Shown here: piece after piece, positions 2,358-8,107 of the stretch
Position numbering within the stretch: the first letter of the stretch is position 1
Layout: each line of letters begins with the position of its first letter
NCBI GenBank assembly: GCA_021325435.1
Contig: JAJPHE010000079.1
Coordinates: 1-34,751, forward strand
Direction: 5' to 3'
DNA: 34,751 bases
Source of the DNA: Actinomycetota bacterium
GTDB lineage: Bacteria > Actinomycetota > Acidimicrobiia > Acidimicrobiales > JAJPHE01
The notes under the pieces: generated by a model
Databases searched by the model: none
Told to the model about the DNA's origin: nothing
Seen by the model: only the letters and a program-made list of their open reading frames with translations
Program-made: the position numbers and the translations under genes

Positions 2358-2792
2358 ATGAGCACCCCATCACCCGAGTCGTCCCGCCGCAACCGGTCCG
2401 AGCGCGACCTCCAGCGCCGGTCGGACTCCGACCGGCGCGACCGCGCCGTCTACGTGATCTCGGTGGCGGCCGAGCTCGCCGGCGTCCATCCCCAGACGCT
2501 GCGGATCTACGAGCGGCGGGGCCTGGTCGACCCGGCCCGCACCGAGGGCGGCAACCGCCGCTACAGCGAGCACGACATCGACCGGCTGCGACGCATCCAG
2601 GAGCTGACGGCCGCCGGGCTCAACCTCGAGGGCGTCCGCCAGGTGATGGCCCTCGAGGACGAGAACGAGCTGCTCCGCCAGCAGCTGGCCCAGGCCCGCC
2701 TCGACGCCAAGGAGGCGGTCGAGGCGACCCATCGCCAGTACCGCCGCGACCTGGTGCCGGTGAAGCAGCTGCCGACGCTGTTCCGCCGGTGA
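2358..2792 (+). CDS. hspR: Heat-shock repressor HspR (MerR-type)
   Basis: A 144-aa MerR-family DNA-binding protein. The winged helix-turn-helix runs from about residue 31 to 85 (VYVISVAAELAGVHPQTLRI, then YERRGLVDPARTEGGNRRYS). It is followed by a coiled-coil dimerisation segment rich in Glu/Gln/Leu (EDENELLRQQLAQARLDAKE). In Streptomyces and Mycobacterium, HspR represses the dnaK operon and clpB at HAIR operators and uses DnaK as co-repressor; the location as fourth gene of the dnaK operon matches this. ATG 2358 is chosen. GTG 2349, overlapping the dnaJ stop as GTGA, would add three residues. A matching HAIR-like site lies upstream of clpB at 2851-2871. Confidence 0.93.
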   Translation: MSTPSPESSRRNRSERDLQRRSDSDRRDRAVYVISVAAELAGVHPQTLRIYERRGLVDPARTEGGNRRYSEHDIDRLRRIQELTAAGLNLEGVRQVMALEDENELLRQQLAQARLDAKEAVEATHRQYRRDLVPVKQLPTLFRR

Positions 2793-2830: not shown

Positions 2831-2856
2831 GGGAACATCTGTGGGCCGAACTTGTT
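2831..2856 (+). promoter_or_regulatory. SigH/SigR-like promoter of clpB
   Basis: GGGAACA at 2831-2837 is followed after 16 nt by GTT at 2854-2856. This fits the actinobacterial SigH/SigR family pattern, GGAA(C/T) then about 16-18 nt then GTT. Transcription would begin inside the adjacent HAIR-like operator. Read by eye only. Confidence 0.5.
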
Positions 2857-2871
2857 AGTCATAGTGTCAAG
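2851..2871. promoter_or_regulatory. HAIR-like HspR operator upstream of clpB
   Basis: CTTGTTA, seven bases, TGTCAAG. The known HAIR consensus is CTTGAGT-N7-ACTCAAG, and this site keeps the outer CTTG and CAAG arms with exactly the consensus 13-nt separation. It lies 52 nt upstream of the clpB start and just after the hspR operon, which is where HspR control of clpB is expected. The inner three bases of each arm deviate from the consensus. Confidence 0.7.
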
Positions 2872-2923
2872 TTTTCTCAGTCGCTATAAAGCACCATTAA
2901 CCGACAGACCGAGGTAGAGCCCG

Positions 2924-8107
<5,184 letters not shown>

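Follow-up and report, generated by a model that had tools for sequence, protein, structure and literature searches.

The joint control of heat-shock genes by the repressor HspR and the sigma factor SigH is already known, since it has been published for Mycobacterium tuberculosis and Corynebacterium glutamicum (PMC4803200, PMC3489674, PMC10012870). In the passages cited here, clpB of M. tuberculosis is described as repressed by HspR from a binding site overlapping the SigH promoter (PMC4803200), SigH and HspR are both reported to act on heat-shock genes of C. glutamicum (PMC3489674), and dnaK of the latter species is described with a sigma-A promoter (P1), a SigH/SigE promoter (P2) and a HAIR element (PMC10012870). 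The HAIR itself is given as CTTGAGT-N7-ACTCAAG (PMC6102357), and the optimum of the SigH promoter consensus as GGAAYR-N17-18-GTT (PMC4803200). Our literature search returned nothing on HspR together with HAIR in Acidimicrobi- taxa; the combination of HspR and Acidimicrobi- yielded only a genome paper on Microbacteriaceae, judged by its title. What we consider new in the present analysis is the spread of the arrangement in this order, a 3-base shift in the register of the promoter and, possibly, a swap between SigR-type and sigma-A-type promoters at an operator that stays in place.

The locus lies in a stretch of 34,751 nt (hereafter the window) from a member of the Acidimicrobiales, in which the genes follow the order dnaK (its end), grpE, dnaJ, hspR and clpB. 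Uncultured Actinomycetota, with a single Acidimicrobiaceae record, make up the nearest named hits of its ClpB. The 131 nt between hspR and clpB hold both a promoter string, GGGAACA-N16-GTT (2831-2856), and an operator string composed of CTTGTTA (2851-2857), GTCATAG (2858-2864) and TGTCAAG (2865-2871), which ends 52 nt before the clpB start (Table 1). All strings named in the preliminary description are found at their positions, and the GTT is common to the promoter and to the left arm of the operator, as had been claimed. The dnaK gene is split across draft contigs, with one part at positions 1-495 of the window (contig C76) and the other on contig C7 of the same genome (9588 to the end), in what looks like an assembly break.

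Table 1. Features of the hspR-clpB region, in coordinates of the window
Feature	Position	Strand	Basis and remarks
hspR, MerR-family heat-shock repressor gene	2358..2792	+	NF047375, 119.4 bits (cut-off 105); start codon by reading
SigR/SigH-type -35 box GGGAACA (core GGAACA 2832-2837)	2831..2837	+	sequence; box enrichment at clpB operators; kept in sister L005
Putative HspR-type operator CTTGTTA-N7-TGTCAAG	2851..2871	.	operator model score 33.6
GTT, presumed -10 of the GGGAACA promoter, inside the left operator arm	2854..2856	+	sequence; TTGTTAG kept in L005
TATAAA, possible sigma-A -10 (doubtful), with weak -35 GTGTCA (2864-2869) at 15 nt	2885..2890	+	sequence
Likely clpB ribosome-binding site GAGGTA	2911..2916	+	sequence, by reading
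clpB, disaggregase gene	2924..5413	+	TIGR03346, 1281.7 bits (cut-off 1232.1); predicted target of both elements

The window resembles M. tuberculosis clpB in the gene, in the two regulators predicted for it and in the predicted placement of the repressor site over a SigH promoter, a comparison made with the published description (PMC4803200); this published overlap also bears out the earlier statement that mycobacterial clpB is under both HspR and SigH. It differs in belonging to another actinobacterial order, in its inner arm letters and in a spacer one base short of the optimum. Like dnaK of C. glutamicum, it combines at a single chaperone gene a stress promoter of the GGAACA...GTT form with a HAIR, but the corynebacterial gene has two promoters, and the passage cited offers their joint control through this element as a supposition, whereas the window has one convincing promoter, and this at clpB (PMC10012870). 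The HAIRs described for dnaK, clpB and lon of Streptomyces have the same outer CTTG...CAAG, the same 7-nt centre and the same location before clpB and dnaK (PMC6102357, PMC2687793); they differ from the window in the inner arm letters, and here a SigR-type box shares the site.

The operator has the outer arms of a HAIR (CTTG-N13-CAAG, with TTG and CAA 13 nt apart) and stands before a known HspR target in a genome that encodes hspR, but its inner letters are TTA/TGT in place of AGT/ACT. We therefore call it a HAIR-like site, a clade variant rather than a textbook HAIR, because it fits the consensus of its own order even though the inner letters differ from those published. To establish this consensus we used 99 genomes (own and relatives), 97 of which gave a ClpB match; 82 clpB loci were taken and 81 upstream regions (the window and 80 relatives) were usable, one locus (L089) being without a usable match, and the set leaves out G005, with 25 nt upstream, and genomes lacking a clpB start. 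The operator is present in 47 of the 81 regions at a model score above 16, the next-best region scoring 0.3, against a background of 375 strips with a 99th percentile of 8.0 and a maximum of 18.2; because the model was trained on these clpB sites, the division into 47 and 34 is partly by construction. Outside the training set, the same model scores above 8 in 79 of 90 dnaK upstream regions, a cut-off chosen after the scores had been viewed, with the 11 regions below it including one that carries a promoter box (L186). The conserved block around the operator in the window reaches about 2849-2874 (AA...TTT).

The consensus of the clpB operators in the order is about AA[CG]TTGATA-N7-T[GA]TCAAGTTT, and at dnaK the left arm is mostly TTGATA or TTGACA, the right arm ACTCAA or GCTCAA. 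The preliminary description had read the inner arms as deviant and perhaps tuned for weak repression. The deviation from the textbook consensus stands, whereas the tuning finds no support and was dropped, since inner arms like these are usual in the order: TGTCAAG, the right arm of the window, is the commonest at clpB (12/47), left arms of the TTGATA, TTGACA and TTGCTA kind outnumber the textbook TTGAGT, and the dnaK operator of the same genome has TTGATA as well. In the window's operator a single letter is unusual, the T in fifth place of the left arm (39 of the 47 operators have A there, 4 have T and 4 have C), and this letter creates the GTT of the promoter. Genes for hspR lie directly upstream of clpB in 26 of the 34 regions without an operator and in 11 of the 47 with one, as expected if clpB genes of the former kind ride on the dnaK operon.

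The promoter string combines a -35 of the GGAAY(R) type with a -10 GTT, as in SigR/SigH-type promoters, with 16 nt between GGAACA and GTT. This spacing may be tolerated, because the same distance recurs in four other operator-bearing regions (L016, L049, L077, L084) and in two regions without an operator (L065, L091). The latter two, upstream of clpB in genomes G053 and G094, show GGGAACA-N16-GTT as what appears to be a SigR-type promoter alone, at the spacing of the window. Of the 47 clpB operators, 15 have a GGAAY box in the strip from -27 to -16 relative to the left arm and 32 have none there; five equally wide control strips yielded 0, 1, 1, 0 and 0. At the dnaK operators the same strip holds a box in 14 of 79 cases (controls 0, 1, 6, 1 and 6), 13 of them at exactly -23, and no other position between -60 and +40 exceeds 2. 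Boxes of the form GGGAAG were excluded from these counts (L008, L011 and L028 at clpB, L185 at dnaK).

Alignment of clpB upstream regions had been named beforehand as the comparison that could refute the two elements, and both came through it: the arms recur as described, the box is enriched, and the nearest relative with an operator (L005, ClpB 82% identical) keeps both. In an alignment of the gap with this relative, CGGGAACAT, TTGTTAG and TGTCAAGTTT are unchanged and TATAAA is not kept. The distance from the box to GTTA is 2 nt longer in L005 than in the window, which speaks against a strict promoter. Another genome of the same family (L043) has neither motif before clpB, with only 23 nt between its hspR match and clpB. 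Among 40 named actinobacterial loci, selected by title from 80 loci of the named ClpB hits, box and operator can be seen by eye to overlap, in the form GGAATA-N17-GTTGAGT, in those titled Micrococcus (L318) and Galactobacter (L337), and many of the others have a good HAIR without such a box; two uncultured loci (L274, L275) also show the overlap by eye.

A box at -23 places GGAAY-N18 before the first three letters of the arm, and these are GTT in 7 of the 13 dnaK cases; the same genome has GGGAAT-N18-ATT at its dnaK operator. In the window the GTT lies three letters deeper in the arm, by way of the T at position 5. At clpB, boxes at -22 to -25 go with a G as first arm letter (6/7 vs 14/40, p 0.018) and boxes at -19 to -21 with a letter other than A at position 5 (4/8 vs 4/39, p 0.020), both in post hoc tests uncorrected for kinship and for the number of tests. 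A tie between box register and arm letters is suggestive at clpB; it is absent at dnaK (7/13 vs 31/66, p 0.44, likewise post hoc and uncorrected). Both dnaK and trxB of the order favour GGAAY-N18-GTT, one base more than clpB of the window. For trxB, a search of 59 genomes returned 30 loci, and the string occurs within about 300 nt upstream in 17 of them; in 10 of the 17 it spells Gly-Ile-Phe or Gly-Ile-Leu codons and in one more Gly-Ile-Val, which probably represent the end of the upstream gene, so that 6 or 7 are free of doubt by reading. Where GGAAT-N18-GTT coincides with the recurring Gly-Ile-Phe run (e.g. L248, L253), it could be a promoter inside coding sequence or a mere conserved peptide.

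Dinucleotide shuffling of the 131-nt gap (20,000 shuffles) produced GGAAY-N16-18-GTT in 1.4% of cases and CTTG-N13-CAAG in 0.14%, and never the two together. When as many as 3 mismatches are allowed, the operator motif occurs once in the window, without mismatch (shuffle mean 0.23; at least one occurrence in 20 of 100 shuffles), and the promoter string once exactly and once with one mismatch (shuffle mean 0.75). Bare CTTG-N13-CAAG is not enriched in the own genome, where it has 9 sites and its backwards control 36, and was dropped as a genome-wide marker. The stricter TTGNTA-N9-TCAAG has 2 sites in the 4.0 Mb of the genome, and GGGAAY-N15-19-TTG-N12-TCAA likewise two, in both cases at dnaK and clpB and with none for the control. 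Across 149 genomes of the phylum (own included), the box-plus-operator pattern matches in 55 and gives 82 matches in all, compared with 29 when it is read backwards; most of these matches look like chance and a few look like true sites. GGGAAY-N17-18-GTTR has 25 sites in the own genome, its backwards version 10, and many of the 25, which lie inside long frames, are probably due to chance.

The genome also encodes the machinery that such a promoter calls for. A sigma factor gene of the SigR/SigH type on contig C147 (TIGR02947, 256.1 bits, cut-off 251.55) is followed directly by a gene for an anti-sigma factor of the RsrA type (TIGR03988, 76.9 bits, cut-off 62.5). With E values up to 0.001 accepted, 98 of the 99 genomes match the SigH model, 10 of them above the cut-off. 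In other actinobacteria SigR-type factors drive the group-2 sigma gene hrdD. SigH is reported to drive the group-2 sigma gene sigB (PMC3489674). GGGAAY-N18-GTTG stands before two principal-type sigma genes and a gene for an HtpX-like protease (L216:1501, L218:1501 and L227; C18, C27 and C97 of the own genome), which are candidate SigR targets; the principal-type sigma and HtpX-like matches fall below the curated family cut-offs, and clpB is also among the genes that follow a GGGAAY-N17-18-GTTR hit.

We propose, at a probability of about 0.68, that clpB is driven from its own SigR/SigH-type stress promoter in the gap and that HspR bound at the operator would block it. RNA polymerase with the SigR/SigH-type ECF sigma factor would read GGGAACA as -35 and the GTT as -10, with transcription starting at about 2861-2866 as judged from the motif positions, and HspR would cover both the -10 and the start point. 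Strong expression of clpB would then need two events, the departure of HspR from the DNA and the freeing of the sigma factor. In Streptomyces, HspR leaves the DNA when DnaK is drawn to misfolded protein; the sigma factor, for its part, would be freed from its RsrA-type zinc anti-sigma factor by oxidation and heat. The fifth-position T in the left arm would serve the promoter and not a weaker repression. Our main doubts concern the spacer, which is one base short, and the several ECF factors of the genome that could read GGAAC. The 32 clpB operators that lack a box, the longer distance in L005 and the absence of both motifs before clpB of L043 also weigh against the proposal.

One might suppose instead that the operator is real and governs a sigma-A promoter, formed by GTGTCA and TATAAA, with GGGAACA and GTT a product of chance or a relic. 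Elsewhere in the order sequences that suit such a promoter do occur at the operator: TANNNT stands at +34 to +38 from the left arm in 14 of the 32 clpB operators without a box, where the right arm would fit as a -35, and in 0 of the 15 with one, and it stands at +26 in 37 of 79 dnaK operators. In the window itself, however, the two hexamers are just 15 nt apart and the -35 is weak, a scan of 2740-2940 gave no match of the sigma-70 type, TANNNT does not occur at +24 to +42, and L005 retains the box and the GTT but not TATAAA, so that we regard this explanation as unlikely. Somewhat less probable still is that operator and promoter are both real and another ECF factor (e.g. SigE-like) reads the promoter, alone or with SigR; this is a variant of the reading we prefer and not contrary to it. 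The SigH model finds 16 matches in the own genome, one over the cut-off, and SigE and SigH of C. glutamicum are described as sharing GGAAC-N18-19-GTT promoters, including that of dnaK (PMC10012870), but the sixth base of the -35 is A, a purine, as SigH is reported to prefer (PMC4803200). That neither element works and clpB is read through from dnaK-grpE-dnaJ-hspR, the motifs being chance or relics, would agree with the finding of no terminator-like site in the hspR-clpB gap and is made plausible, in the clade and in the window, by the frequency of hspR next to clpB, but it is very improbable in view of the gap shuffles, the conservation of operator and box, and the restriction of such sites in the own genome to the classic HspR targets dnaK and clpB.

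Taken over the order, the two types of promoter seem to avoid each other at clpB, where TANNNT (+24 to +42) accompanies 18 of the 32 box-less operators and 1 of the 15 that have a box (Fisher p 0.0013). A ClpB tree of 47 rows, including two short ones, calls for no fewer than 12 changes of state in the box and no fewer than 6 in the sigma-A -10; a kinship-corrected test of the exclusion had 6 pairs, which is too few (median p 1). At dnaK there is no exclusion, with a sigma-A-like -10 in 13 of 14 operators with a box and in 48 of 65 without. The TANNNT at +26 in the dnaK loci (L125-L214) often takes the form TTTGCTATACT, an extended -10 that abuts the right arm, and the left arm TTGATA could serve as its -35 at the long distance of 19 nt. 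We tentatively suggest, as an idea with the odds somewhat against it, that the clpB operator is a fixed anchor around which promoters come and go, that the GTT of the left arm acts as a SigR -10 in two registers 3 bases apart and TTGTCA-type letters of the right arm as a sigma-A -35, and that the inner letters would thus record the driving sigma factor.

These results extend the shared regulation of chaperone genes through HspR and an ECF sigma factor, predicted here at both dnaK and clpB, from mycobacteria and corynebacteria to a little-studied order. One stretch of 40 nt can accommodate two DNA-binding proteins with different requirements, and what appear to be deviations in an operator may be read as letters of a promoter instead of a tuning of repression. 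If the operator does act as such an anchor, the type of stress that induces clpB would be readable from the letters of its operator.
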